Shown: positions 1 to 14,999 of the stretch, piece by piece
How positions within the stretch are numbered: position 1 is the first letter of the stretch
How the letters are laid out: every line of letters begins with the position of its first letter
NCBI GenBank assembly: GCA_937960435.1
Contig: CALGPN010000003.1
Span: 1 to 64,000, forward strand
Length of the DNA: 64,000 nucleotides
Source of the DNA: an uncultured Desulfosoma sp.
Lineage (GTDB): Bacteria; Desulfobacterota; Syntrophobacteria; Syntrophobacterales; DSM-9756
Reading direction: 5' to 3'
Notes under the pieces: model-generated
What the model was told of the DNA's origin: nothing
Database searches by the model: none
The model's input: the letters and a program-made list of their open reading frames with translations, nothing else
Position numbers and translations under genes: made by a program

Positions 1-585
1 ATGTTCTTCGGCAAGGATTCAGGCCTCGAAGCCAAGGAACCTCCGTCCAACATGATCTGGGCCATGACGCTGGCGGCATTTCTGTGTATCGCCATCGGGT
101 GCTATCCGAAGCCGCTGTATGATCTCTTGCCGTTCCCGGTGGATTTTGACCCTTATACCGGGGACCACGTGACCAGCGCTCTGGGGATCCTGCTCTTTAC
201 CGGGCTTGGATTCTTCATGCTGCTAAAGAAGCTGGACCCCGAGCCGACCATCAGTATCGACACGGACTGGTTCTACCGAAAAGGAAGCCGTGTCTTCATG
301 TGGGTGGCGAGCAAGCCGGTGGCCACGACGGACACTTACGTCGGGGATATCTGGAAGGTGTGGTTTTCCCGATTCACCCTTTTCTTCTCGGACATTCTGG
401 CGCGCATCATGGATGTTCGGGGGATTGACGGCGCGGTCAACGGAATCGCCGACTTCTTCCTGGCGGTTTCACGCCTGGCGCGCATGACGGCGACGGGCCT
501 TGTGCGGCATTACGCGGCGACGATGCTGATCGGCGGCATCGTCATCCTGGGCTACTACCTCTTCGCGACTTTGATGAGTCTATGA
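1..585 (+). CDS. nuoL: NuoL/Mrp-type antiporter-like membrane subunit, C-terminal part (gene starts upstream of the window)
   Basis: Only the last 194 residues lie in the window. The frame is open from base 1, so the first Met seen is probably internal. There is a hydrophobic stretch near residues 20-40, a second near 60-78, a long amphipathic part, and a last membrane helix at about 172-192. This fits the lateral-helix end of NuoL-type ion-translocating subunits of complex I. The stop overlaps the nuoM start (ATGA), so the two are translationally coupled. In the family this subunit carries one antiporter-like ion channel. NuoL is favoured over MrpA/MnhD because nuoM and nuoN follow. Confidence 0.8.
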
Positions 586-2171
586 TGAATGCGGCGAATT
601 TTCCCATCCTGTCGGTGACCACGTTTCTGCCCTTGGCGGGCGTTGCGTTGATCTGCCTCATTCCGAGCCGGCATCGGAAGGCGATCCAATGGACGGCCTT
701 CCTGACGACCGTGGTGACCTTTCTGGTCTCGCTGCAGTTGTACTTCCGGTTCGACTTAACTACGTGGGAGATGCAGTTCGTTGAGGATGCGTCGTGGATT
801 CCGCAGTTTGCCATCCGTTATCAGATGGGCATCGACGGAATCAGCCTGTTGCTGGTTTTGCTCACAACGTTCCTGTCCGCCGTGTCGGTTCTTTCCACCT
901 GGTCGGCGGTCACCGAAAGGGTGAAGGCCTACATGGCGTCCCTGTTGCTGCTGGAAACGGGGATGATCGGCGTCTTTTGCGCCCTGGACTTCATCCTGTT
1001 CTACGTGTTCTGGGAAGTCATGTTGATTCCCATGTACTTCATCATCGGGATCTGGGGAGGGCCCCGTCGCATTTACGCGGCCGTGAAGTTCTTCATTTAC
1101 ACCATGAGCGGCAGCGTGCTCATGCTGGTGGCCATTCTCGTACTCTATTTCATGTACCACGAGGCGACCGGGACGTATAGCTTCTACATTCTCGATTACC
1201 ACAAGCTGGGGTTGCCGGCCAACGTGCAGATCTGGCTGTTCCTGGCCTTTGCCGTGGCGTTTGCCATCAAAGTTCCCATGTTCCCGTTCCACACTTGGCT
1301 TCCGGATGCGCACGTGGAAGCGCCGACGGCCGGGAGCGTCATTCTTGCGGGCGTCCTTCTGAAGATGGGGACATACGGCTTCTTGCGGTTTTGCCTGCCG
1401 ATCTTTCCTCAGGCCAGTGTGGTCTTCGTCCCGCTGATTCTCGCGCTGTCCTTGATCGGGATCATCTACGGGGCGTTGGTGTCGCTGGCGCAGGACGACG
1501 TGAAAAAGCTTGTGGCGTATTCTAGTGTGAGTCACTTGGGATACTGCATGTTGGGCATGTTTGCTCTGAACGTGGATGGGATCAAGGGGAGCCTCATCCA
1601 GATGATCAATCACGGGCTGAGCACGGGCGCTCTGTTCTTGATTGTTGGTATCCTCTATGAGCGACGCCATACGCGACTCATTTCGGAATACGGCGGGCTG
1701 ATGAAAGTCATGCCGATTTTTGCTTTCCTCTTTCTGCTCGTCGCCTTCTCCTCCATGGGAGTGCCGGGGACCAACGGGTTTGTCGGCGAATTGTTGATCC
1801 TCATCGGGGCTTTTCAGGCGTCGTTGAAGTTCGGGCTGGCGGCGACGATCGGGCTGATCCTTGGGGCGGTTTACCTCCTGTGGACCGTAAAACGTGTCAC
1901 CTACGGGCCGATCACCAAGCCGGAAAACGAGGTGTTGAAGGACATGACCGTCCGCGAATACGCCTACATGCTACCGGTTTTGGTGTTCATTTTCTGGATC
2001 GGACTCTATCCGAAGCCTTTTCTCAGAACCATGGATGCGTCGGTGGCGCATTTGTTGGAATCCGTGCACGCGAAACAAGCGGCGCAGGTTTTGGAGCAGA
2101 AGCCGGCGTGGTTTCAGAATCTTCTTGCGAAAGCCGATATTCAACAGCTGACGAAGGGCCAAGGGCGGTAG
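582..2171 (+). CDS. nuoM: NADH-quinone oxidoreductase subunit M
   Basis: The 529-residue polytopic protein has the NuoM/Mrp antiporter-like fold, with about 14 hydrophobic segments. The family hallmarks are visible: the [16 protein letters not shown] stretch around residues 147-162, with the conserved membrane Glu, and later [19 protein letters not shown] near 230. The length is usual for NuoM. It is one of the proton-pumping subunits of respiratory complex I in the cytoplasmic membrane. It starts inside the stop of the preceding nuoL-like gene and is followed 3 bases after its stop by nuoN. Confidence 0.95.
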
Positions 2172-2174
2172 CTT

Positions 2175-3650
2175 ATGGAACAGGTGATGAGCAGCATCAG
2201 TCTGAGCGCGATTGCTCCGGAGTTGGTTCTGGTCGCTTGCGGATTGATCGTCTTAATGATTCAAGCTGTGTTCGGAAGCCGGTTTCGGGACTCTTTCGCC
2301 TACGTAAGCTTGCTGGGGATTGGGGGGGCGGCGTTTTTGGTCTTGACGAGCCCGGGGGCCTTCGAGTCCAAAATTGTGGAATATTCTTTTTGCGACATGT
2401 GGGTCGTGGACAATTTCTCTCGTTTTTTTAAGCTCATTTTCCTCATCGGGACCGGGCTGACTCTGTTGATCTCGCTGCGATATCTGGACAACGAGGCCAT
2501 GCAGCACAGCGAGTATTACGCCCTGATGCTCCTGTGCACCGTGGGGATGATGGTCATGGCCAGTGCGGCCGAATTGATCACCATTTTTTTGGGCGTAGAG
2601 CTCATGTCCATTTCTTTGTACGCCTTGGCGGGTTACACGCGGTCGCGGATGATGTCCAACGAAGCGGCAATTAAATATTTTATTCTCGGCTCGTTTGCTT
2701 CTGGCTTCCTTATTTACGGGATTGCCTTGATCTATGGAACGACCGGGACGTCCCAGATTCCTGCCATCGCCCGCTACCTTGCCCAGGCGGGAGCCGGGGC
2801 TGCCGTGCTGGTCATGGGCATGGCGCTCTTGATCATCGGGTTCGGCTTTAAAACGGCATCGGTGCCCTTCCATATGTGGGCGCCGGATGTCTATGAAGGG
2901 GCCCCGGCCCCGGTCACGGGCTTCATGTCGGCCGGTCCCAAGGCGGCAGCCTTTGCAGCGTTTGTGAGGATCTTCATGGAAGCGCTACCAACGCTGCAAA
3001 CGGATTGGATCATGGTGATTTGGCTCATTGCGGTACTCACCATGACGGTGGGCAACATCATCGCCCTTGTGCAGGAAAATATCAAAAGGATGCTGGCCTA
3101 TTCCAGCATCGCCCATGCGGGATACGTGCTCGTCGCCTTTCTGGCCGCCGGGGAACTGGGGCTGACGAGCATTCTCTATTACATGCTCGCCTACACGTTC
3201 ATGAACATCGGCGCCTTCGCAGTGATCACGATGCTTGCTGGTGCGGGGGAAACGCGGGTGAAGGTGGAAGACTATCGCGGCGTCGGATATAAACACCCCG
3301 TGGCGGCCTTGGCCATGAGCCTCTTTCTGTTTTCGCTGGCGGGGATTCCCCCGACGGGCGGCTTCATGGGGAAGTTCTACATTTTTTCGGCGGCCGTCAA
3401 ACAAGGTTACATCTGGCTGGCGATCATCGGTGTCCTCAACAGCGTTGTCTCAGTGTATTATTACCTTCGCGTGACGGTGGCCATGTATATGCAGGCGCCT
3501 GAAAAGGATGAGGACGTCCCGGCCGCGTCTGCGTTGTCTCCCGCGTTGGTCGTTGCGATCTTCATATCGGCCTACGGGGTTTTGTCCTTGGGCCTCTTCC
3601 CGTCAACCTATGTGGCCATGGTCAAAGAGTCCTTCCTGTCCTTCCTCTAG
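2175..3650 (+). CDS. nuoN: NADH-quinone oxidoreductase subunit N
   Basis: The 491-residue multi-spanning protein has NuoN signatures, including GVELMSISLYALAGY near residue 140 and the FKTASVPFHMWAPDVYEGAP region near 235. It is the third antiporter-like subunit of the complex I membrane arm. Gene order L-M-N is the usual 3' end of a nuo operon. A 100-base gap separates it from a formate dehydrogenase gene on the same strand, so co-transcription is likely. Confidence 0.95.
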   Translation: MEQVMSSISLSAIAPELVLVACGLIVLMIQAVFGSRFRDSFAYVSLLGIGGAAFLVLTSPGAFESKIVEYSFCDMWVVDNFSRFFKLIFLIGTGLTLLISLRYLDNEAMQHSEYYALMLLCTVGMMVMASAAELITIFLGVELMSISLYALAGYTRSRMMSNEAAIKYFILGSFASGFLIYGIALIYGTTGTSQIPAIARYLAQAGAGAAVLVMGMALLIIGFGFKTASVPFHMWAPDVYEGAPAPVTGFMSAGPKAAAFAAFVRIFMEALPTLQTDWIMVIWLIAVLTMTVGNIIALVQENIKRMLAYSSIAHAGYVLVAFLAAGELGLTSILYYMLAYTFMNIGAFAVITMLAGAGETRVKVEDYRGVGYKHPVAALAMSLFLFSLAGIPPTGGFMGKFYIFSAAVKQGYIWLAIIGVLNSVVSVYYYLRVTVAMYMQAPEKDEDVPAASALSPALVVAIFISAYGVLSLGLFPSTYVAMVKESFLSFL

Positions 3651-3750
3651 GCTTGCGGACCAGGGGGTTTCCCGGAGGGGTGAACCTGGTTATCCTCGTG
3701 AAGATTGGCTTGGAGAAGAGGGAAAACAGTCGGTGAAAAGAGAGAATACC

Positions 3751-6423
3751 ATGAGTGCGGTAAAACTGACGATAGATGGGCAGGACGTTGCCGTTGAGGC
3801 GGGGCGATCCATCCTGGATGCGGCGAAGGCGGCGGGGATCCGCATCCCGACTTTATGCTACCACGAACGGCTCAACCCGATAGGATCGTGCAATCTGTGC
3901 GTCGTGGAAGTCAACGGCAAGAGCACACCGGTGCATGCGTGCAAGACGCCCGCTGAGGAGGGCATGCTGGTGACGACCGACTCGGAGATGCTTCGAGGGA
4001 TGCGTCGCAAGGCCATGCAGCGTCTTTTGGTACACCATCCCTTGGATTGCCCCATTTGCGACAAGGCCGGGGATTGCCGGCTGCAGGATTTGGTCGTCGA
4101 GCTGGGTGTGACGGCCGAGGCTTATGAGGAGCCCAAAGAGCGGACGGAGGCCGTCTACGCCACGCCTCTGATCAAGTACTGGCGTGACCGATGCGTCCAG
4201 TGCCGACGGTGCGAATCGGCGTGTCGGGAAATCAAGGGGCAGGGGGCCATCGAATTCGTGGAAGTGAACGGCTCCCTGGAAATGAAGGTCACGCCGGAAC
4301 GATGCGTCTCCTGTGGAGAGTGTCTGCAGGTTTGTCCCACGGGGGCTCTGACGGAAAACTTGAGCCCCATGAAGGCGCGTGTGTTCACGGTGAAGAAGGT
4401 TCCGACCACGTGCACCTATTGCGGGTGTGGATGCCAGGTCGAGCTGAGTGTTGTGGATAATCGGATTGTGGCGGTGAACGGGGTCTACGACCCCACGATT
4501 AATGAAGCTAGTTTGTGTGTGAAGGGCCGATTCGGCTACGAATTCGTTTCCAGCGAGGAGCGGCTCAAGAAGCCTTTGATCCGGCGGGGGGACGGTTTCG
4601 TAGAGGCAAGCTGGGACGAAGCTCTGGATTACGTCGCCAAGAATCTCGGAAAAATCAAAGCCGAGCATGGGCCGGATGCCATCGGCGGGTTCGCCTCGGC
4701 GCGGTGCACAAACGAGGAGAATTACCTCTTCCAAAAATTTATGCGCGCGGTGATCGGCACAAACAATGTCGACCACTGCGCCCGTCTCTGACACAGCTCC
4801 ACGGTGGCAGGTCTTGCCGCCACGTTTGGAAGCGGTGCCATGACGAACCCCTTCAAGGATGTGCTGCATTCAGGTGTCATCCTTCTGACCGGGACCAACA
4901 CCACGGCGAACCATCCCATCATTGCCAACTATATTCACGAGGCGGTGACGAAGCGCGGGGCCAAGCTGATCGTCATCGATCCGCGGCGGATCAAGCTTGT
5001 GGACATCGCCGCCATGTGGCTCCAGCCTGCTGTGGGCACGGATGTCGCCTGGATTAACGGGTTGATGCACGTCATCATCAAGGAAAACCTTTACAACAAG
5101 GCGTATGTGGAGGAGCGCACGGAGGGCTTTGAGGAACTCAAAGCCTGTGTGGAAAAATACACGCCGAAACATGTGGCGAAGATCACCGGCCTTCGAGAAA
5201 AAGACATCATCGCGGCGGCGCGGCTCTTCGCGACCTCGGGACCGGGATCCATTATCTACGCCATGGGCATCACCCAGCACATATCGGGGACCGACAATGT
5301 CAAGTGCCTGGCTGCCCTGTCTATGCTGTGCGGGTATGTGGGGGTTCCCGGTGGCGGCGTAAACCCCTTGCGCGGCCAAAACAACGTCCAGGGCGCTTGC
5401 GATATGGGCGGGTTGCCCAACGTCTATTCGGGTTACCAGGTGGTCACGTCCGATGAGATCCGACAGAAATTCGAGAAGGCATGGAATGTTGCCAAGCTCC
5501 CGGACAAAGTGGGCTTGACGGTAACGGAAATGGGAAATGCTGCCGGCAAGTCCATCAAGGCCCTCTATATTATGGGGGAAAATCCCCTTCTCAGTGATGC
5601 AGACTTGAACCATGCGGAAAAAGCGTTGGCGTCTTTGGATTTCCTCGTCGTCCAGGATATTTTCATGACGGAAACGGCCAAATTGGCCCGTGTGGTTTTG
5701 CCGAGCGCCTGCTTTGCAGAAAAAGAAGGGACCTTTACGAACACGGAACGAAAGGTATTGCGGGTCCGGCAAGCCTTGGAACCCCCCGGGGAAGCGAAAG
5801 CGGACTGGTGGATCACGGCCGAAATCGCCAATCGCATGGGCTACCCCATGAATTATGACGGCCCTGAAGCCATCATGAAGGAAATCAACGCGCTGACGCC
5901 GAGTTACGGGGGGATCACCTACGAGCGGCTGGAAAAAGGCGGGCTTGTGTGGCCGTGTCCTACTCCGGACCACCCGGGGACGCCCATCCTCCACGTGGGG
6001 CGGTTCACCCGGGGCAAGGGGGCGTTTTTTGCCATCGAATACCGGCCGCCGGCGGAACCGACGGATGCGGAGTACCCGTTTGTGCTCACCACAGGCCGGG
6101 TGCATTACCATTACCACACGGGAACCATGACCCGAAAAGGGACCGCTCTGAACCGGCTGTATCCCGAGCCTCTCGTGGAAATCAATGCTCAGGATGCGAA
6201 GAAACTCAAGGTGGCCGACGGGGAGTATGTGCGCATCTCGTCGCGGCGAGGCACCATCACGATCAAGGCCATGGTGTCGGAGATTACAGCCCGGGGAGTG
6301 GTGTTCGTGCCTTTCCACTTTTACGAAGCGGCAGCCAACAAACTCACCATCAATGCCTTGGATCCCATTTCCAAGATTCCCGAATACAAGGTCTGTGCGG
6401 TCAAGGTGGAAAAGGCTGCCTGA
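3751..6423 (+). CDS. fdhA: Selenocysteine-containing formate dehydrogenase alpha subunit with NuoG-like Fe-S N-terminus
   Basis: One 890-residue protein runs through an in-frame TGA at 4789-4791, read as selenocysteine (residue 347) in the context HCARL-Sec-HSST, the classic formate dehydrogenase active site. Visible cofactor ligands are: [2Fe-2S] Cys36/47/50/64; His96-Cys100/103/109; two ferredoxin clusters, Cys148/151/154/158 and 185/188/191/195; and the molybdopterin-domain cluster Cys221/224/228. The catalytic and C-terminal dinucleotide-binding domains follow. The family oxidises formate to CO2 (reversibly) using Mo or W bis-MGD. The N-terminal Fe-S module resembles NuoG and HydA, typical of cytosolic NAD- or ferredoxin-linked enzymes. 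I chose ATG 3751 because the [2Fe-2S] fold begins at once. Further upstream frame is open but does not look coding. Confidence 0.95.
4789..4824 (+). promoter_or_regulatory. Selenocysteine UGA codon and bacterial SECIS hairpin
   Basis: The UGA is followed by a clean hairpin: stem GGTGGCA (4803-4809) pairs with TGCCGCC (4815-4821), with one G-U pair, around the five-base loop GGTCT. The GGUCU apical loop, and its distance just downstream of UGA, match the SelB-binding SECIS of E. coli fdhF and fdnG as I know them. The reading frame continues unbroken for another 544 codons after the UGA. Confidence 0.93.
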
Positions 6424-6968
6424 CGCTTCCCACCCCGATTCTGGGTCCGTTTTCCTGACTCGGTGCCCTCTCGCTTTTGACAAGGTGAGGGCCACCGAGC
6501 GGCAGGCGGGCAAAAAACCCTGCCACTCACGCTCCTTCGTTCGATCCTATGGTCCCTCACGGCGGCGAGCTCGACCGTGTGGTCCTTAGCATGAGCGGAT
6601 GACGAACCTTTGCGGCCGCCACGACGCCGACCGGCCTACGAGCGCCGCTGAGGCCGGTTCGGCCCATAAGTCATGGAATCTCGGACGGGACGGCAAGGAT
6701 GTGAAGCGGGCAAGGGCGGCTCGGACGGGAAGTCTCGAAGCGGATGCTTCATGGAAGAGCAGAACCGACCCGCTTCTTTTCGTATCTCCGAGCCAACGGA
6801 AGGGCGTGCTGCGCACATTTCGGCACCGCCGGCTCACCGGCTGCAGGGGAATCCCTTGACATGCTCTGCGCTGCAGCGGGGGCTGTTGCTGCGAGGCAAG
6901 CGCCGCGCCGTTACAGGCTCTAGTGCTGTCGTTTTTCGGGATTTGTTGCCCAGGTGTTGTCCTGGATA
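6424..6968. other. Gene-free stretch between fdhA and the tRNA-Thr terminator
   Basis: I found no convincing gene here. Short open frames on both strands read as low-complexity Arg/Ser/Pro-rich translations without family resemblance. One modest inverted repeat (ACCGGCC ... GGCCGGT, near 6630-6660) is present. There is no clear intrinsic terminator for fdhA and no match to tmRNA, RNase P RNA or SRP RNA hallmarks that I could recognise. Confidence 0.5.
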
Positions 6969-7002
6969 CGAAAAAGGGGTCGCGAATTTATCGCAACCCC
7001 TT
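6969..7002 (-). terminator. Intrinsic terminator of tRNA-Thr
   Basis: A 12-bp stem with one C-A mismatch and the five-base loop ATTTA occupies 6974-7002. Read leftward it is followed by five T residues. It lies 8 bases past the tRNA CCA end, so it fits termination of the tRNA transcript. Confidence 0.85.
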
Positions 7003-7010
7003 GATTTTCC

Positions 7011-7085
7011 TGGAGCCGGCGATGGGATTCGAACCCGCGACCTGCTGATTACGAATCAGCTGCTCTACCGCTGAGCTACGCCGGC
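7011..7085 (-). tRNA. tRNA-Thr (anticodon CGT)
   Basis: The complement strand folds as a full cloverleaf. The acceptor is GCCGGCG/CGCCGGC, the D arm GCTC/GAGC, the anticodon stem GCTGA/TCAGC with loop TTCGTAA (anticodon CGT), and the T loop TTCGAAT. CCA is encoded. The T stem GCGGG/CCCAT contains one C-A mismatch and a terminal G-U, which is unusual for an active tRNA. Confidence 0.95.
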
Positions 7086-7101
7086 CTAGAGAGCGGAAGG
7101 G

Positions 7102-7131
7102 CTTATAGCATGCGGGTTTAAAGACGGTCAA
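7102..7131 (-). promoter_or_regulatory. Sigma70-type promoter of tRNA-Thr
   Basis: On the complement strand a -35 TTGACC (7126-7131) is separated by 18 bases from a -10 TATAAG (7102-7107). This places the start about 10 bases before the tRNA 5' end. The strong match and tight spacing make it convincing. Confidence 0.75.
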
Positions 7132-7196
7132 GGCGAAAACGGTATAACAAAGTCCTAATTTTTTTCGGCGTGTGCCGGGTTATGTGGCGTCGATTG

Positions 7197-7580
7197 TCAG
7201 GTTTTGACCGCAACGCATTTGATTTCGATCTGGGCACCTCGAGGCAGTGCGCCGACCTGGACGACGGCCCGAGCCGGCTTGTGTCCGGCGAACGCTTCTT
7301 CGTAGATGGCGTTGAAGGTGTGAAATTGTGCGAGATCCGTCAAGAAGACGTCAACGGCGGCCACATCCCGCAAGCTGTAGCCCGCCGCTTCCAAGATGGT
7401 TTGGATATTCCGCAGTGCCTGACGCACTTGATCTGGAAAGGCCTCGCCGACCAGTTGGCCTGTTTCGGGGACCAGAGGGATCTGGCCGCTCACGAAAAGC
7501 CACGGCCCCGCCTGCACGGCCTGGCTGTAAGGGCCGATGGCCGCTGGGGCTTTAGGAGTCTCAACCAAATGGAACGCCAT
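7197..7580 (-). CDS. ridA: RidA family reactive intermediate deaminase
   Basis: The 127-residue protein is full length for the RidA/YjgF/UK114 family. It shows the N-terminal APAAIGPYSQAV motif and the C-terminal signature with the catalytic Arg (PARAVVQVGALPRGAQIEIK), where the Arg and the late Glu bind the substrate carboxylate and water. Members hydrolyse reactive enamine/imine intermediates released by PLP enzymes and act in the cytosol as trimers. It stands alone and leftward, with its own predicted promoter, next to tRNA-Thr. Confidence 0.93.
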   Translation of the reverse strand: MAFHLVETPKAPAAIGPYSQAVQAGPWLFVSGQIPLVPETGQLVGEAFPDQVRQALRNIQTILEAAGYSLRDVAAVDVFLTDLAQFHTFNAIYEEAFAGHKPARAVVQVGALPRGAQIEIKCVAVKT

Positions 7581-7629
7581 AGGTTCTTTCCTTTCTCACG
7601 TGGGCCGAGCGTGTTTATCCTCGGCCGAT

Positions 7630-7658
7630 TTTCTAGCACTGGAAAAGACGGTTGCCAA
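7630..7658 (-). promoter_or_regulatory. Predicted ridA promoter
   Basis: The complement strand has TTGGCA (7653-7658), a 17-base spacer and TAGAAA (7630-7635), about 50-60 bases before the ridA start. On the other strand, TTGCCA (7652-7657) and TATAAG (7673-7678) with a 15-base spacer may drive the divergent glycosyltransferase operon. That spacing is short, so it is less certain. Confidence 0.55.
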
Positions 7659-7706
7659 GGCCGTTTAGGGTCTATAAGATGCCGTGAATGAATCTATGGC
7701 GGATGT

Positions 7707-8981
7707 GTGCCCAACACCGGAGTCGGCATCGTCGCGAGCATTGGGACGACCGTGGACGGCGGGGGAAGGGTGGCTTCCATACCCGTAAAAAAAATCCTCA
7801 TGTACAGCCACGACACCTTCGGCCTCGGGCATATCCGTCGCACTCTTGCTATCGCTCGAGCGCTGCGCAAAGTCCCCGCCACCGTCTTGATTCTCACGGG
7901 ATCCCCTCTCGTCGGTCGCTTCAAGATCCCTCGAAGGGTCGATTTTGTCCGTATCCCGGGGATGATCAAAGTGACCAACGAGGAGTATCTGCCTCTTTCC
8001 ATGAAACTCGAGGCCACGGAGGTGCTGGAGATTCGCAAGAGCATCATCCTGGGCACGGCGAAAGCCTTTTGTCCGGATTTCTTCATTGTGGACAAAGCCC
8101 CTCTCGGGCTGAAGCGCGAGGTGGTCGATACGCTCCACTGGCTTCGGGACGGCCATCCCGGCTGCACCACGATTTTGGGGCTGCGCGATATCATGGACGG
8201 GGCGCAAGCGACCATCGAGGAATGGGAAACCAAGGGGATCTATAAGGCGATGGAGGCGCTTTACGACGAGATCTGGGTCTACGGGGTGCAGTCCTTCTAT
8301 GACCCTGTGAAGGAATACCGGATTCCTGAGGAGCTTGTCGGCAAGATCACTTATACGGGCTACATCCCTCGGCAGGTGCCGTCGCCTTCGGATATCCAAG
8401 CCCTACGTCGGGAGTTGGGTGTGGGGGCGGAGGAAAAAGTGGTGCTCATGACCGCGGGAGGCGGTGGTGACGGGTACCCGGTGGTCAACACATTTCTCAA
8501 AGCCTTTGAAGAAAACAGGCCGCCGCCCTTCGTGCGCGTCGTCGTCGTCACGGGGCCGTTCCTTTCGCCGACACGTTACAAGGAAGTGGAAAGGCGGTGC
8601 CAAACCCTGGGCTTTCAGCTTTTCCGTTTCCATCGCTTCATGGAACGGCTCATCGGGGCCTCAGACGTCATCGTCAGCATGGGCGGTTACAATACGGTGT
8701 GCGAAATTATCAGCCAGCGCAAACCCTTCCTTATCATCCCGAGAAGTGTTCCGAGGGAGGAACAACTCATCCGTGCGGAAGTCTTATGCCGTCGGGGTTT
8801 TTGCGAATACCTCCCCCCGGAGCGTTTGAGCGCCGCGGCGGTCTTTCGAAAGGTGTGCGAGCTATTGAAAAACGGAGCGGAGGTGGCATCCAAGGCGGAG
8901 GAATTTCCGTTTACGGCCTTGGACGTCATTCGATCACGAATCGTGGAAAGCAGCAGGGGGGCCCGGGTCCAATGGGCGTGA
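7707..8981 (+). CDS. MurG/GT28-like predicted glycosyltransferase
   Basis: The 424-residue protein resembles the COG4671-type predicted glycosyltransferases with a GT-B fold. An N-terminal Rossmann half begins near residue 28 with the SHDTFGLGHIRRTLAIARAL motif. A C-terminal nucleotide-sugar half contains a Gly-rich TAGGGGDG turn (about residues 250-257) and the SMGGYNTVCE donor-site motif (about 325-334), followed by a QLIRAE region as in MurG-like enzymes. GTG 7707 is the earliest start. GTG 7770 is possible, as conserved sequence starts only after it. It heads a tightly packed operon; its stop overlaps the next start. Acceptor and donor sugars are unknown. Confidence 0.8.
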   Translation: MPNTGVGIVASIGTTVDGGGRVASIPVKKILMYSHDTFGLGHIRRTLAIARALRKVPATVLILTGSPLVGRFKIPRRVDFVRIPGMIKVTNEEYLPLSMKLEATEVLEIRKSIILGTAKAFCPDFFIVDKAPLGLKREVVDTLHWLRDGHPGCTTILGLRDIMDGAQATIEEWETKGIYKAMEALYDEIWVYGVQSFYDPVKEYRIPEELVGKITYTGYIPRQVPSPSDIQALRRELGVGAEEKVVLMTAGGGGDGYPVVNTFLKAFEENRPPPFVRVVVVTGPFLSPTRYKEVERRCQTLGFQLFRFHRFMERLIGASDVIVSMGGYNTVCEIISQRKPFLIIPRSVPREEQLIRAEVLCRRGFCEYLPPERLSAAAVFRKVCELLKNGAEVASKAEEFPFTALDVIRSRIVESSRGARVQWA

Positions 8982-10342
8982 TGGCCCCACGCGCCGGGGT
9001 CACAGAAGGGGTCCTCCGGCGTGGAGATGCCGCGAAAGGGTTTTCTGAGGATAGGCCGCCCTTGGGAATCAGGTCGGCACCGCGTCTCGGCATGATCCTC
9101 AAGGGATACCCCCGCATTTCCGAGAGCTTCATCAGCCAGGAAATCGCTCTTCTGGAATCCTTGGGACTCTCCATCGAGATCTATTCCCTACGACGACCTC
9201 GGGAATCCTTTACACACGGAAGCGTCCGAAGAATTCGAGCGCCGGTGACCTACCTTCCCGAATATGTGCTCCCTCACCTTTTTACCGTGCTGGAGCCGAA
9301 CCTCCGCCTCTGGGGTCGGCTCCGAACCCGCTACGTTCGATGTCTTCGGGAGGCCCTAGAGCGCGCAGTGGATCGGCGCACGACGGCGACGCTGCGCCAT
9401 TTCCTGCAAGGGGGGTATCTTGCCTGGCATTGTCTCATGGGGCGGCCCGTGCGGCATCTGCACGCCCATTTTTGTCACACACCCACCTCCGTCGCGTTTT
9501 TTGCCTCCCAACTCACAAAACTGCCCTTCAGCTTTACGGCGCATGCCAAAGACATTTACACCTCGGACCCTGACCAGCTGCGCCGCAAGATGCACCACGC
9601 CCGCTTTGTGGTCACATGCACGGGCTACAACGCCCGTTATTTGAGCTCGATCTTGGACTCCGACAGCGCCGGCTCTGATGGGCAGAGGCATCGACCATCC
9701 GTTCCGATCCACACCATCTATCACGGGATCGACGTGGCGTTTTTCAACTATGCTCCCGATCCTCCTCCCGCCCCTCCTTTTCGCGTGCTTTCGGTGGGCC
9801 GGATCGTCCCCAAAAAAGGCTACGATGACGTACTCCAGGCTTTGAAAAAATTGGCCGAATGGGGGGTTCCGTTCCATTTCGACCACATCGGTTCCGGGGA
9901 AGACAAAGAAACGATTCACGCCTTGACGCGTCGTCTTGGTCTCTGGGATCGGACGACCTTTCATGGAACCCTTCCGCACGAGCGCGTCCTCGACTTTTAC
10001 CGCCGATCCCATGTGTTTGTCCTCGGCTGCAAAACAGCCCCGAACGGAGATCGCGACGGCATTCCCAACGTCCTGATGGAAGCCATGGCGGTGGGGCTGC
10101 CGGTGGTGAGCACCCGCCATTCCGCCATCCCGGAATTGGTGGAAGACGGAGTGACCGGAACGTTGGTGCCTCCGGGATCCCCCGAAGCTTTGGCCGGGGC
10201 GCTGAAAAAAGTTTTGGAAGCCGGGCCGTCCATCGAGGCGCAAAGGCGTGCCGCCCGGAAAAGGGTGGAAGCCGATTTCGACAGCCGCCGATGGATCCGC
10301 AAGCTGTTTGAGCTGTTGCGTGACGCCGTGGGAGCGCCTTGA
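8972..10342 (+). CDS. Glycosyltransferase family 4 (WcaL/colanic-type)
   Basis: About 456 residues with GT-B architecture. The N-terminal motif GYPRISESFISQEI and the HAHFCHTPTSVAFFASQL segment are typical of WcaL-like exopolysaccharide transferases. The C-terminal half has VGRIVPKKGYDDVLQAL and the donor-binding GIPNVLMEAMAVGLPVVST with its Glu. ATG 8972 or 8981 (overlapping the previous stop as TGATG) are the likely starts, and ATG 9092 matches the beginning of family similarity. It probably adds a sugar to a lipid-linked or surface glycan at the inner membrane. It is translationally coupled to both neighbours. Confidence 0.87.
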   Translation: MGVMAPRAGVTEGVLRRGDAAKGFSEDRPPLGIRSAPRLGMILKGYPRISESFISQEIALLESLGLSIEIYSLRRPRESFTHGSVRRIRAPVTYLPEYVLPHLFTVLEPNLRLWGRLRTRYVRCLREALERAVDRRTTATLRHFLQGGYLAWHCLMGRPVRHLHAHFCHTPTSVAFFASQLTKLPFSFTAHAKDIYTSDPDQLRRKMHHARFVVTCTGYNARYLSSILDSDSAGSDGQRHRPSVPIHTIYHGIDVAFFNYAPDPPPAPPFRVLSVGRIVPKKGYDDVLQALKKLAEWGVPFHFDHIGSGEDKETIHALTRRLGLWDRTTFHGTLPHERVLDFYRRSHVFVLGCKTAPNGDRDGIPNVLMEAMAVGLPVVSTRHSAIPELVEDGVTGTLVPPGSPEALAGALKKVLEAGPSIEAQRRAARKRVEADFDSRRWIRKLFELLRDAVGAP

Positions 10343-11475
10343 AAATCGCCGTCTACTGCCCCAACAAGCCTCTTGGGCACCCTGACCCCTCCGGGGATCA
10401 GACCATTGCGCACAATCTTGTGGAGGCGCTGCAGCGCCTCGGGCATGCGTGCCGGGAAATGAGCACCTTTCGGGCGCGGTGGTTTTGGACGCACCCCGAC
10501 GGCGTTCGACGGGCTCTCGAGGGCGTGTTGGAGGCTTTGAAAGGGTCCGTGGCCTGGCGCCCGGATCTGTGGCTCACCTATCACACCTACTACAAAGCTC
10601 CTGATGTGATCGGCCCGTGGGTCAGCGGGTTCTTGAAGATTCCCTACGCCCTTTTTCAGCCCATGTACGGCACGCGACGCCGAAAAGACCCCAAGACGCG
10701 GCCCGGGTTCTTCTTGAATCGGTGGGCCTTGCGCCGTTCGGCGCTTGCCGTGACCAACAATCGAAACGATCGTGCGGCGTTGGAACGGATCATTGCGACG
10801 GAGCGGTTAACCTATCTGGCACCGGGGATCTTCCCGGAAATGTTTTCTCGACACGAGGAAGCGGGAAGAGCCGTGAGGGATCGTCTCGGCTTGACGGCCG
10901 ACGATCGGGTGCTCTTGACGGCGGCTCGGTTTCGCAGCGGCGTGAAATGGGAAAGCCTGCGTTTCCTTTTTCGCGCCCTGTCTTTGCTGGATTTCGAAAA
11001 ATTGTCCGTGCATTTGGTGGTCGCCGGGGACGGTCCCATGGAAACGGAAGTCCGGCGGCGAGCTCTGGCCACGCTGGGATCCCGCGTGGTTTTTGCCGGC
11101 CGGGTGGCACGGCGCGACCTTTACGCCTACTACAGTGCGGCGGACCTTTTTGTGTTTCCGGGCATCGGGGAATCCTTAGGGATGGTCTTTCTCGAAGCCC
11201 AGTCCTGCGGACTTCCTGTGGTGGCTCTGTGCGAAGGGGGCGTGGATCAAGTGGTGGCCGACGGCATGAGCGGCGTTCTCGTTCGGGGAAGGGATCCGGT
11301 ACGCTATGCCGAAGCCGTTGCGGATCTTTTGGCGGATTCGCTGAGGCGGCAGCGTATGGGACGGGAAGCCGCCCGATTTGTGGATCGGGAGCGGAATTTT
11401 CACCGTCAAGCGCGCTACTTGGCCGCGCTCTTGGATTCCCTTGTTTCGGGACGCAATCGACCGGACCGGCAATGA
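10339..11475 (+). CDS. Glycosyltransferase family 4
   Basis: This 378-residue GT-B protein has an N-terminal MKIAVYCPNKPLGHPDPSGD segment and a C-terminal donor half with a FAGRVARRDLYAYYSAADLF motif and FPGIGESLGMVFLEAQSCG, where the E-x7-E-like catalytic/donor region is kept. It starts with TTG inside the previous stop (TTGA), four bases after a GGGAG Shine-Dalgarno-like run, and ends overlapping the next gene (ATGA). It is the third consecutive glycosyltransferase, so the set could build an oligosaccharide. The substrate cannot be deduced. Confidence 0.87.
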   Translation: MKIAVYCPNKPLGHPDPSGDQTIAHNLVEALQRLGHACREMSTFRARWFWTHPDGVRRALEGVLEALKGSVAWRPDLWLTYHTYYKAPDVIGPWVSGFLKIPYALFQPMYGTRRRKDPKTRPGFFLNRWALRRSALAVTNNRNDRAALERIIATERLTYLAPGIFPEMFSRHEEAGRAVRDRLGLTADDRVLLTAARFRSGVKWESLRFLFRALSLLDFEKLSVHLVVAGDGPMETEVRRRALATLGSRVVFAGRVARRDLYAYYSAADLFVFPGIGESLGMVFLEAQSCGLPVVALCEGGVDQVVADGMSGVLVRGRDPVRYAEAVADLLADSLRRQRMGREAARFVDRERNFHRQARYLAALLDSLVSGRNRPDRQ

Positions 11476-12197
11476 AAATCGCCATTCTTTCGGACATTCA
11501 CGGCAATTTGGAAGCCTTCCGGGAGGTGTTGCGGGATCTGGAAATCGTACAGCCCGACCGGGTGGTCTGTCTCGGGGACGCTGTAGGGTACGGACCCGAC
11601 CCGGAGGCCGTCGTGCGTCTGCTTCAGGCGCACCGCATCCCAAGCGTTCTAGGGAACCATGAGTGGGCTTTGGCGCATCCGCTCCATCTGGAATGGTTCA
11701 ATCCATCGGCGCGCTTGTCTCTGGAAAAAACCGCCGAACTGCTTTCCCCCGAAGTGCGCCGCACCGTGACGACATGGCCGACCACTTTGCACGTGGAAGG
11801 ATCGTTATGTGTCCATGGATGCCCTCCCAATTCCGTGACGCGGTATCTTTTCGAGGTGGTCCCGGAAGAATTGCCGGGTCTTTTTTCCGCCTATCCAGAG
11901 CCCTTGTGTTTCGTTGGGCATACTCATCAGTTGCGGTGGGTCCGCTGGGACGGGCATCAGGTCACCTCGGGCTGGATTCGGGGGGAGGTTTTGGAGCTTC
12001 ATCCTGCCGATCGATACATCATCAATGTGGGGGCCGTCGGCCAGCCTCGGGATGGAGACAACCGCGCGAAATACGTGGTCTGGGACACGGAAGCCCGAAC
12101 GGTCCGCGTGCATCGCGTCCCCTACGACATTGCCAAGACCGTGGAAAAGATCCTGGCGTTGGGGTTCCCGCGTATCAACGCGGATCGGCTCTGGTAG
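11472..12197 (+). CDS. Calcineurin-like metallophosphoesterase (YfcE-like)
   Basis: The 241-residue protein carries all metallophosphoesterase metal-binding motifs in order: SDIHGN, GDAVGYGP, GNHE, VHG and GHTH. The family binds two divalent metals and cleaves phosphomono- or diesters in the cytosol. Its ATG overlaps the stop of the glycosyltransferase before it, so expression is coupled to the glycan genes. A role on a sugar-phosphate or nucleotide by-product is only inference. The next gene begins 49 bases downstream. Confidence 0.9.
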   Translation: MKIAILSDIHGNLEAFREVLRDLEIVQPDRVVCLGDAVGYGPDPEAVVRLLQAHRIPSVLGNHEWALAHPLHLEWFNPSARLSLEKTAELLSPEVRRTVTTWPTTLHVEGSLCVHGCPPNSVTRYLFEVVPEELPGLFSAYPEPLCFVGHTHQLRWVRWDGHQVTSGWIRGEVLELHPADRYIINVGAVGQPRDGDNRAKYVVWDTEARTVRVHRVPYDIAKTVEKILALGFPRINADRLW

Positions 12198-12246
12198 CTG
12201 TTTTGCGAGAGTCCGAGGGCGGGACGGCCTAAATTTGGAGTCTCCC

Positions 12247-13578
12247 ATGAAGTGTATTGGTCGGTACCGGATTGTGGGGCTTTTGGGCCGCGGCGGCATG
12301 GGACGGGTGTATCGCGTATGGGATCCCGTTTCCCAGAGGCTTCTGGCTCTGAAGATGCTTCAGCCGCATCCCCCCTTGGCGACCCTTTTGGGCGAAGCCC
12401 GAATGAGGACGCTTTTCCTCATGGAGACGGACGTCATGGAAAAACTTGACCATCCTAACCTGACGGCCGTGCTGGACCGAGGTGTTCATGAAGGGCGCCC
12501 GTTTTTCGTCATGGAGTATTATTGCCGGCAACTCGCCGAGCATATCGGGGAAGGGGATGTGCTGGAGCGGCCCACGCGCCCGCTGCCGCCTCATGAGGCT
12601 TTCCGAATCACCCGGGAAATCCTCAGCGGCCTTGGAGCCATGCATCGCCTGGGCCTGGTTCATCGGGATGTCAAGCCCGCCAACGTGCTTCTTTCGGAAG
12701 ACAACGCGGTGAAACTCATCGACTTCGGCTTGTCCAAAATTCCGGGCGTTTCTTTTCCCAAACCGCACCAGCTTGTGGTGGGAACACCTTACTATGCGGC
12801 TCCGGAACAGGAACGAAACCCCGACAACGCAACAGCGGCTTCGGATCTCTACAGCGTGGGTGTCATCCTCTTTCGTCTGCTCACGGGATGGCTCCCGTCG
12901 GAGCCATCTTTTGCCGCCTTGCCCCATCCCTTCGACGGCGCCTCGTGGAGGGCCTTCTTTCGAAAGGCCTGCGCCGCCTCGCCGAGCAAACGTTACCAAA
13001 GCGCCGCGGGGATGCGGCGCGCTTTGGCGTTTTTGGAAAAGGCGTTTGATGAGGCATTGGAAAAAGCGTGCCGCCTGTGGCATGACGAAGGCGTGCAGCG
13101 CATCGGAAGAATGCGGTGCCGGCATGAGCCCGTCAAGGTTTCTCGAAAGGACGCCCAGCGGCTTTTCGACCTGGATCCTCTTTGGCGCCCTCGGGTGGAA
13201 ACGCCCAACGCCTGGACACTCGTGGACGACGTCGTGTTCGATGAAACGACGGGCCTGTGGTGGCAGCGCGATGGGTCTCCAGAAAGGCTCACTTGGCCGG
13301 AGGCCCGAGAATACGTGGGCGGCCTCGGCCGAGCCGCTTTTTCCGGGCGAGAAGACTGGCGCCTCCCGACCGTTTCGGAACTTGCCACGATTCTCAAACG
13401 ACCGCGATATCCCGAAACCTTTTGTCTCGAGCCGGTTTTTTCTGGTCGGATCCGAAGATTTTGGTCAGCGGACCGCTGCACTTATCGATCGGCCTGGTAT
13501 GCCGCTGGGGAACTGGGCTATTTTGCCGCTCAGGATTTTTCGTGCAGGCTGTATGTCCGGGCCGTGGCCGGACCCTAG
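12247..13578 (+). CDS. Ser/Thr protein kinase with C-terminal Lcl/DUF1566-like domain
   Basis: The 443-residue protein starts with a complete Hanks kinase domain: GRGGMG loop (residues 14-19), ATP Lys36, HRDVKPAN catalytic loop (139-146), DFG (159-161) and the APE motif. So it should be active. After a linker rich in basic and aromatic residues, residues about 320-443 resemble the Lcl C-terminal/DUF1566 domain (VVFDETTGLWWQRDG, EDWRLPTVSEL, FWSADR and a late LYVRAV strand). I see no transmembrane helix or signal peptide. In most bacterial kinases with sensor domains the sensor is extracytoplasmic, so a soluble arrangement is odd. It follows the phosphoesterase and precedes the YihY gene. Confidence 0.88.
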   Translation: MKCIGRYRIVGLLGRGGMGRVYRVWDPVSQRLLALKMLQPHPPLATLLGEARMRTLFLMETDVMEKLDHPNLTAVLDRGVHEGRPFFVMEYYCRQLAEHIGEGDVLERPTRPLPPHEAFRITREILSGLGAMHRLGLVHRDVKPANVLLSEDNAVKLIDFGLSKIPGVSFPKPHQLVVGTPYYAAPEQERNPDNATAASDLYSVGVILFRLLTGWLPSEPSFAALPHPFDGASWRAFFRKACAASPSKRYQSAAGMRRALAFLEKAFDEALEKACRLWHDEGVQRIGRMRCRHEPVKVSRKDAQRLFDLDPLWRPRVETPNAWTLVDDVVFDETTGLWWQRDGSPERLTWPEAREYVGGLGRAAFSGREDWRLPTVSELATILKRPRYPETFCLEPVFSGRIRRFWSADRCTYRSAWYAAGELGYFAAQDFSCRLYVRAVAGP

Positions 13579-13604
13579 CAGAGCCTTGCGCAGCGGAGGC
13601 CGTG

Positions 13605-14999
13605 ATGAGGAAACCTTGGAAGGATAAGCTGGGAGCCTTTCTTTTTGACATGAAAGACGGCCCTACGGGTCCTTTCAGGGAAGGAGCGCGACGCCTCGGC
13701 CGTCTCATCTATCTCAGCTTGTGGAAATTCAACCGGGACTTTTGTTTCGACCAGGCGGCAAGTTTGGCTTTTGCCACCATCTTGTCCCTCATTCCCTTTG
13801 CGGTTCTCTTTTTCAGTTTTGTCGGGCTGCTGGGAGGAGGGAAACACATCATTCGTTTCGTGCAGGACAAAATCCTTCCGGCCGTGGTGCCCGAATTCCA
13901 TGCTCAGGTGATGGATTGGCTGCAAAGATACATCTCCCCCACCGTGTTTAAGGCCGGCCCCGCGGGACTCATCAACCTGGCGGCGCTTGTCGGCCTCGTC
14001 TTCGGGGCGCTCAACATCCTGATCACGGCGGAGAGGGTCTTCAATCACATCTGGCGAGTCAAGGGAACACGCCGTTACCTTCAAAAGGTGACGGCCTTTT
14101 GGGTGGTGCTCACCTCAAGCCCCTTCGTCATTCTGGCTTCCATGTGGATCGGCAACGTCCTTGTGCCTCCCGGAGGGGCCGTCGAATCTTTTCTGCGGCG
14201 GCACTGGCTCGTGCGGAGCCTGTACGGGTTATGCGCCCCCATTTTGGTGGAAACTACGTGTTTTGCCTTGATCTACCTCTACCTGCCGTCGGCTCGCGTG
14301 CGGATGCGAAACGCCGTCATCGCCGGCTTATGGGCGGCGGCCCTCTGGGAACTGTCCAAAAAGGGATTTTACGTCTATGTGAGCGGAGCCGGCCAGGTGA
14401 CGAATTTCTATCGGCAACTGGCCACGGTCCCTCTTTTTTTTCTGTGGCTGTTTCTGACGTGGATCATCATCCTATGGGGCGGCCAACTGAACTACGCGTT
14501 GCAGAATACGAAAGCCTTGATCTTGGAACAGGCCAGGGGGGTGAAGGTCCATCGGTTTTCCCAGGCGTCTCTGGGACTTTTCCTTCTTTTCCGCATTTAC
14601 GAGCGCTTTCTCGAAGGGCGTCCTGCGCCCGAGTTGCAGGGCCTGGCAGACGAAGCGGGCGTCTCCCAGGATGATTTTGCGGATATTGCCTATTTTCTGG
14701 TGGAGCACAATATCCTGCTGGAAGACGCTCACTGTCCCGGCCGATTTTCGCTCGCGTGCCATCCCTCCCGCATCCTTTTGGACCAGGTGATCCGATGGCT
14801 CCATGAAAAAGAGTTTCCGGGAGAAACTCCTTTCCTCGATGTGGGGCGGGAATCCAACACCGTGGCTTCCCCGTGGCCCCGAGCCCTGCGACATCCCGCC
14901 GAGAAACTCTTTCGAGAGGCCCTGACAGGGTATCTTTCTCCCTTCAGAGGAAAGAGCCTCGAACAGGCGTGGGAGGAATCCCGATCTTCCTTTCTCTAG
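13605..14999 (+). CDS. YihY/BrkB family membrane protein with C-terminal cytosolic extension
   Basis: 464 residues. Residues about 45-300 hold six hydrophobic segments with the family marks FDQAASLAFATILSLIPFAV, LVGLVFGALNI and LPSARVRMRNAVIAGLWAA. A roughly 150-residue soluble C-terminus follows, with winged-helix-like features (GLADEAGVSQDDFADIAYFL), as in the longer members of this family. Start ATG 13605 sits behind a CGGAGG site. The molecular role of the family is not established. E. coli YihY was once mislabelled RNase BN. Here it closes the glycosyltransferase/kinase cluster. Confidence 0.88.
   Translation: MRKPWKDKLGAFLFDMKDGPTGPFREGARRLGRLIYLSLWKFNRDFCFDQAASLAFATILSLIPFAVLFFSFVGLLGGGKHIIRFVQDKILPAVVPEFHAQVMDWLQRYISPTVFKAGPAGLINLAALVGLVFGALNILITAERVFNHIWRVKGTRRYLQKVTAFWVVLTSSPFVILASMWIGNVLVPPGGAVESFLRRHWLVRSLYGLCAPILVETTCFALIYLYLPSARVRMRNAVIAGLWAAALWELSKKGFYVYVSGAGQVTNFYRQLATVPLFFLWLFLTWIIILWGGQLNYALQNTKALILEQARGVKVHRFSQASLGLFLLFRIYERFLEGRPAPELQGLADEAGVSQDDFADIAYFLVEHNILLEDAHCPGRFSLACHPSRILLDQVIRWLHEKEFPGETPFLDVGRESNTVASPWPRALRHPAEKLFREALTGYLSPFRGKSLEQAWEESRSSFL

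Follow-up and report, generated by a model that had tools for sequence, protein, structure and literature searches.

The window, a stretch of 64,000 nucleotides from one contig of an uncultured Desulfosoma sp., carries six genes on the + strand between positions 7770 and 14999. The first three encode glycosyltransferases. GT28 (7770..8981) is a MurG-like, COG4671-like enzyme (Pfam Glyco_tran_28_C, E 2e-9); it is followed by GT4a (8981..10342), an EpsE/WcaL-like family 4 glycosyltransferase (Glycos_transf_1, 5e-36), and by GT4b (10339..11475), a second family 4 enzyme (Glyco_trans_1_4, 6e-31). Next to the trio lie MPE (11472..12197), a calcineurin-like metallophosphoesterase (Metallophos_2, 5e-16), and KIN (12247..13578), a Hanks-type Ser/Thr kinase with a C-terminal Lcl_C domain (Pkinase 4e-37, Lcl_C 4e-17). 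The last gene (13605..14999) encodes a YihY/BrkB-family inner membrane protein (Virul_fac_BrkB 6e-43). We refer to the trio as module A, to the phosphoesterase and kinase as module B and to YihY as module C.

The six genes are closely packed. The TGA of GT28 (8979-8981) overlaps the ATG of GT4a at 8981, for which GTG 8978 is an alternative start; GT4b starts with TTG within the stop of GT4a, giving a 4-base TTGA overlap (start 10339, stop end 10342), and GT4b and the phosphoesterase meet at ATGA (start 11472, stop end 11475). The phosphoesterase-kinase and kinase-YihY gaps are 49 bases (12198-12246) and 26 bases (13579-13604). The sequence-only reading had described this compact packing, with its overlaps and gaps of <50 bases, correctly; its first start at 7707 should probably be moved to GTG 7770, because the proteins of congeners are, like the resulting product, 403 aa long.

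Upstream of the trio, a RidA gene (7197-7580) is located on the opposite strand and is divergently oriented; RidA is also close to the trio in several genomes of family f3 (G015, G013, G031 and G027). Further upstream, positions 582-6423 hold a proton-antiporter-type membrane subunit and a frame resembling a formate-dehydrogenase-type molybdoenzyme, followed by tRNA-Thr at 7011-7085. Downstream of YihY are proB and proA, both on the + strand, nadD, which was assigned from its sequence and not by family search, and rsfS. In the promoter scan, the count of promoter-like sites was not above that of shuffled sequence; terminator-like sites were slightly above it in the terminator scan, and none was decisive.

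Gene order was surveyed in 60 genomes, the window's own and its relatives, using the GT28, kinase, YihY and phosphoesterase proteins as queries; the stretches around the protein matches were extracted and their genes were mapped. Here G denotes a genome (G000 is the window's own), g a genus (g1 is the window's), f a family and L a locus. The complete run GT28-GT4a-GT4b-phosphoesterase-kinase-YihY-proB-proA is present only in g1 and g3, with three genomes each. Of the overlaps, only that of 4 bases between GT4a and GT4b recurs in every one of the five relatives that have the full run. The GT4b-phosphoesterase gap in these relatives is 254, 40, 512, 78 and 340 bases, and an overlap at this junction is seen in the window's genome only. 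The sequence-only reading had proposed to check whether the order is kept in close relatives, and it already breaks down within the family. In the complete genome of g4, the trio is located ∼0.8 Mb from the phosphoesterase, which directly precedes proB, and the protein search found no kinase orthologue. In g2, the phosphoesterase also lies before proB and the trio elsewhere; no kinase orthologue was found there by the protein search of the 60-genome set.

The phosphoesterase and the kinase are a pair separate from the transferases. The phosphoesterase adjoins the kinase at 16 of the 20 kinase orthologues of relatives, and 10 of those 16 are at loci without transferases. Among named records with the kinase in other genomes, the phosphoesterase is upstream in 11/25, including Desulfofustis and Nitratidesulfovibrio, and none carries transferases or YihY in the stretch examined. 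The kinase relatives belong to Desulfobacterota. By genome, the co-occurrence of kinase and phosphoesterase is significant (p = 4e-7; outside the family, 6e-6), and the phosphoesterase is found without the kinase in 10/60 genomes. Nothing supports an involvement of the phosphoesterase in sugar metabolism; the enzyme travels with the kinase.

The phosphoesterase contains the calcineurin-like metal-binding motifs, and DIHGN, GD..GYGP, GNHE, H115 and GHTH are invariant in 11 orthologues. Its nearest solved structure is 3rqz (E 6e-42), which is of the same family and matches over the full length but whose title names no substrate. By sequence, 3qfm also belongs to this family, but it is more distant (E 5e-9). 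Assignment as a PPP protein phosphatase (PrpA/PrpB) was rejected, with 25.9 bits vs an NCBIfam cut-off of 326. A phosphoesterase paralogue (39%) is located at G000:C28:144226-144954 (L096), near a different Ser/Thr kinase and a DSHCT helicase; this neighbourhood is kept in G001, G002, G006 and G012, and an acetyltransferase is also present in relatives.

The kinase has the Hanks-type fold, keeps the HRD, DFG and APE motifs and shows no obvious membrane segment. Its tail was modelled from an alignment of 20 sequences; the best of five models reached a pLDDT of 72, the others 36-44. The best PDB match of the model is 8q4e, the C-terminal domain of Legionella Lcl (E 2e-3), followed by C-type lectins. 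The E-value is modest but agrees with the Pfam match, and a C-type lectin fold is predicted for the Lcl_C domain. Like other Hanks-type kinases with Lcl_C (DUF1566), KIN combines kinase motifs with the lectin-fold domain; different from them, it is adjacent to a calcineurin-like phosphoesterase. Our literature search found no paper on DUF1566 kinases or on the kinase-phosphoesterase pair. Judged from the two families and their adjacency, the pair would perform reversible protein phosphorylation, with the lectin-fold domain as a possible sensor of a cytosolic ligand. Several other identities were considered and rejected. The lectin-fold tail raised the idea of a diversity-generating retroelement target, but the genome holds no second copy of the kinase 3′ end that could serve as a template repeat (best E 0.26). 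For the defence kinases PD-T4-6 and MAD6, the PADLOC matches cover the kinase domain only, and NCBIfam MAD6 gave 126 bits vs 460; for a phage origin, only generic kinase matches were obtained.

YihY is a third, separate gene. It scores 115.6 bits against TIGR00765, above the cut-off of 73.15, and bears a C-terminal extension of about 150 residues. The YihY orthologues of f2 (G010 and G012) are located apart from the other cluster genes.

The order GT28-GT4a-GT4b was kept in 20/20 loci first compared. The f2 and f5 loci continue directly from the trio into further genes. ABC genes adjoin it in f2, f5 and f42 genomes; a deacetylase is also there in f5 and f42. Annotation across the loci gave as partner enzymes a histidine phosphatase, a second GT28-like transferase (GT28b) and a DUF2334 deacetylase, and on the envelope side an FtsX-type permease, a LolD-like ATPase, a giant M28/MacB-core/FtsX protein and a DUF6785/6784 protein; a further partner is a 654-residue protein without Pfam match. 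The giant protein is ∼1,600 residues in size. In other families, one-locus versions with all partners occur in G050 (L170) and G091 (L162); that of G014 (L169) is without histidine phosphatase and deacetylase. In the distant loci of G141, G158 and G301, the set is broken or reduced, and the trio is split or GT4b is missing. In L180 (G110), one open frame of 1,444 residues (6887-11221) contains a GT28 relative (38%), possibly as part of a multi-transferase fusion.

The second half of module A is on a different contig in the window's genome, at about 59302-71598 of G000:C25 (L085, L171), and its link to the trio is here one of co-occurrence. This intact, tightly packed cluster encodes a poly-gamma-glutamate hydrolase, GT28b, the FtsX permease, the LolD-like ATPase, the giant M28/MacB/FtsX protein, the DUF6785/6784 protein and the 654-residue protein. 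The two halves are ∼1.5 Mb apart in G005 and ∼0.25 Mb apart in G015; both genomes are complete, and the split is therefore not an assembly effect.

GT4a resembles the EpsE/WcaL-type exopolysaccharide transferases and matches the NCBIfam EpsE model over its full length, but with 185 bits vs a cut-off of 400, and no eps or colanic acid genes were seen alongside. Like the LolCDE and MacB ABC transporters, the C25-type transporter contains an ATPase and a permease of the FtsX family; different from them, its permease is fused to the giant protein with M28 and MacB-core domains, and it is accompanied by the DUF6785/6784 protein and glycan enzymes. The neighbourhoods of the desulfobacterial loci held no recognisable genes for sugar precursors, a polymerase or an outer-membrane export protein. 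No Wzx/Wzy, Wzm/Wzt or synthase exporter was seen in the annotated loci, where the exporter is LolD/FtsX/MacB-like; LolCD/MacB-type transporters are not known to export polysaccharides. The GPMC system was rejected (best NF038229 score in the window 42.7 bits vs a cut-off of 400). Literature searches found no description of the trio/partner pathway and no papers on COG4671 transferases, DUF2334 with transferases or DUF6785/6784.

The trio and the envelope-side proteins co-occur strongly. Among the 60 genomes, the giant and DUF6785 proteins are present in 33 of the 35 with the trio's GT28 and absent from 23 of the 25 others (p = 3e-12). The exceptions are G029 and G053, with the trio and without the exporter proteins, and G046 and G049, where the exporter proteins occur without the trio; of these four genomes, G049 and G053 are incomplete. 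Across 297 genomes evenly sampled from the phylum Desulfobacterota, GT28 (E<=1e-80, a cut-off placed in the gap from 1.7e-81 to 1.5e-71 once the results had been seen) and DUF6785 share exactly one set of 20 genomes, of 11 families, and both are absent from the other 277 (p = 1.6e-31, ignoring kinship). DUF6785 is absent from four further genomes, whose GT28 relatives are more diverged (1e-53 to 1e-71). Family f20 includes one genome with both proteins and two with a diverged GT28 relative only and no DUF6785, a within-family pattern that is not explained by kinship.

Homologues of GT28, GT4a, GT28b, GT4b and the DUF2334-type deacetylase, with 30-40% identity, are located on R. johnstonii pRL11, S. 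meliloti pSymB and Shinella pShin-02. In our search of plasmids, Rhizobium, Sinorhizobium and Shinella carry GT28-GT4a-GT28b in one run, and several have GT4b and the deacetylase nearby; additional copies may be present on rhizobial chromosomes. Different from the desulfobacterial loci, GT4b is set apart from the run and the exporter is an ABC protein of ∼900 residues with a cyclic-nucleotide-binding partner; no copies of the giant M28/MacB and DUF6785 proteins were found on the plasmids. These comparisons point to an exchange of the exporter around a conserved enzyme core. In the tree, GT28 and GT28b form two lines, each with desulfobacterial and rhizobial members; long branches meet, making the deeper forks uncertain. 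A nucleotide-sugar dehydrogenase is also encoded in the rhizobial loci, and that of S. meliloti adds a polysaccharide lyase. Together with the deacetylase, these genes favour a polymer, and by analogy the rhizobial context points to such a product for module A. No paper giving these loci a product was found in the literature searched. pRL110056, reported to be needed for root colonisation (PMC11103875), may fall in the pRL11 cluster, and smb20804/20805 affect the capsule (PMC5539429); both are leads only and are not used as evidence here.

The observations are the gene content, the conserved order of the trio, its adjacency to the second half in other genomes, the co-occurrence and the pair's independence; from them, we consider it probable that the six genes are three independent modules that meet here, not one conserved system, and that the trio is part of a surface-polysaccharide pathway with the C25 half. 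Modules A, B and C would have come to lie side by side, ahead of proBA, in the lineage of two genera. The competing view, that of the sequence-only reading, takes all six as a single envelope-glycan system, with the transferases or YihY under the control of kinase and phosphoesterase. The same order on one strand, with mostly short gaps, in the six genomes of g1 and g3 speaks for it, and the lectin-fold domain of the kinase could sense a glycan precursor. However, g2 and g4, which belong to the same family, do not keep the order, the trio-phosphoesterase gaps reach 512 bases, and in other families the pair sits elsewhere without the transferases. Co-occurrence of trio and kinase is also weak (p = 0.05) and at chance level outside the family (p = 0.21). 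We regard a single system as improbable. A surface-glycan role of the trio is well supported through its conserved partners, but kinase regulation of a six-gene system is not. The sequence-only reading was probably right about an undescribed envelope-sugar pathway but misplaced its border, with half of it elsewhere and three of the genes from other modules.

Judged by its sequence relationships, module A is most likely a surface-polysaccharide pathway; we infer its product, transport direction, enzyme specificities and any regulation. The two GT28-like enzymes, one here and one in G000:C25, and the two GT4 enzymes would build the glycan in the cytoplasm; in relatives the DUF2334 deacetylase would trim it. 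The C25 cluster, with its LolD-like ATPase, FtsX permease, giant, DUF6785/6784 and 654-residue proteins, may move or process it across the envelope. Two other products were weighed. Module A might glycosylate the lipid A core or an inner-membrane glycolipid, the C25 transporter carrying lipoproteins or the glycolipid in a LolCDE-like manner. MurG-type enzymes act on lipid-linked acceptors, the ATPase is nearest to LolD, and the permease part of the giant protein matches LolF and LolC; yet the rhizobial deacetylase, dehydrogenase and lyase suit a polymer, and we hold this product to be rather unlikely. Less likely still, and slightly behind even the single six-gene system, is the making and export of a glycosylated peptide or the processing of peptide-linked glycans, where the M28 part and the poly-gamma-glutamate hydrolase would cut peptide bonds. 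The giant protein has a putative M28 peptidase domain, and the hydrolase adjoins GT28b in f1 genomes; but the hydrolase was seen in f1 only, the M28 match, at E 2e-8, is weak, and the loci showed neither a precursor peptide nor a gene for peptide synthesis.

With the surface-polysaccharide pathway as the preferred reading of module A, a phylum-wide, testable system replaces a genome-specific cluster. The DUF6785/DUF6784 and giant M28/MacB proteins gain strong candidate partners, and module A is linked to homologous genes in genetically tractable rhizobia. The conserved phosphatase-kinase pair has a lectin-fold domain, and a search for its ligand is now possible. More tentatively, and with the balance somewhat against it, module A may be an undescribed envelope-glycan machine widespread in Desulfobacterota. 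In such a machine, a core of five enzymes (two GT28-like, two GT4 and the deacetylase) would feed a transporter of the LolCDE/MacB type, its permease being fused to the giant M28-like protein and working with the DUF6785/6784 membrane protein, and rhizobia would use the same core with another exporter. If true, machinery that is otherwise known to serve lipoproteins and small molecules would handle a glycan.
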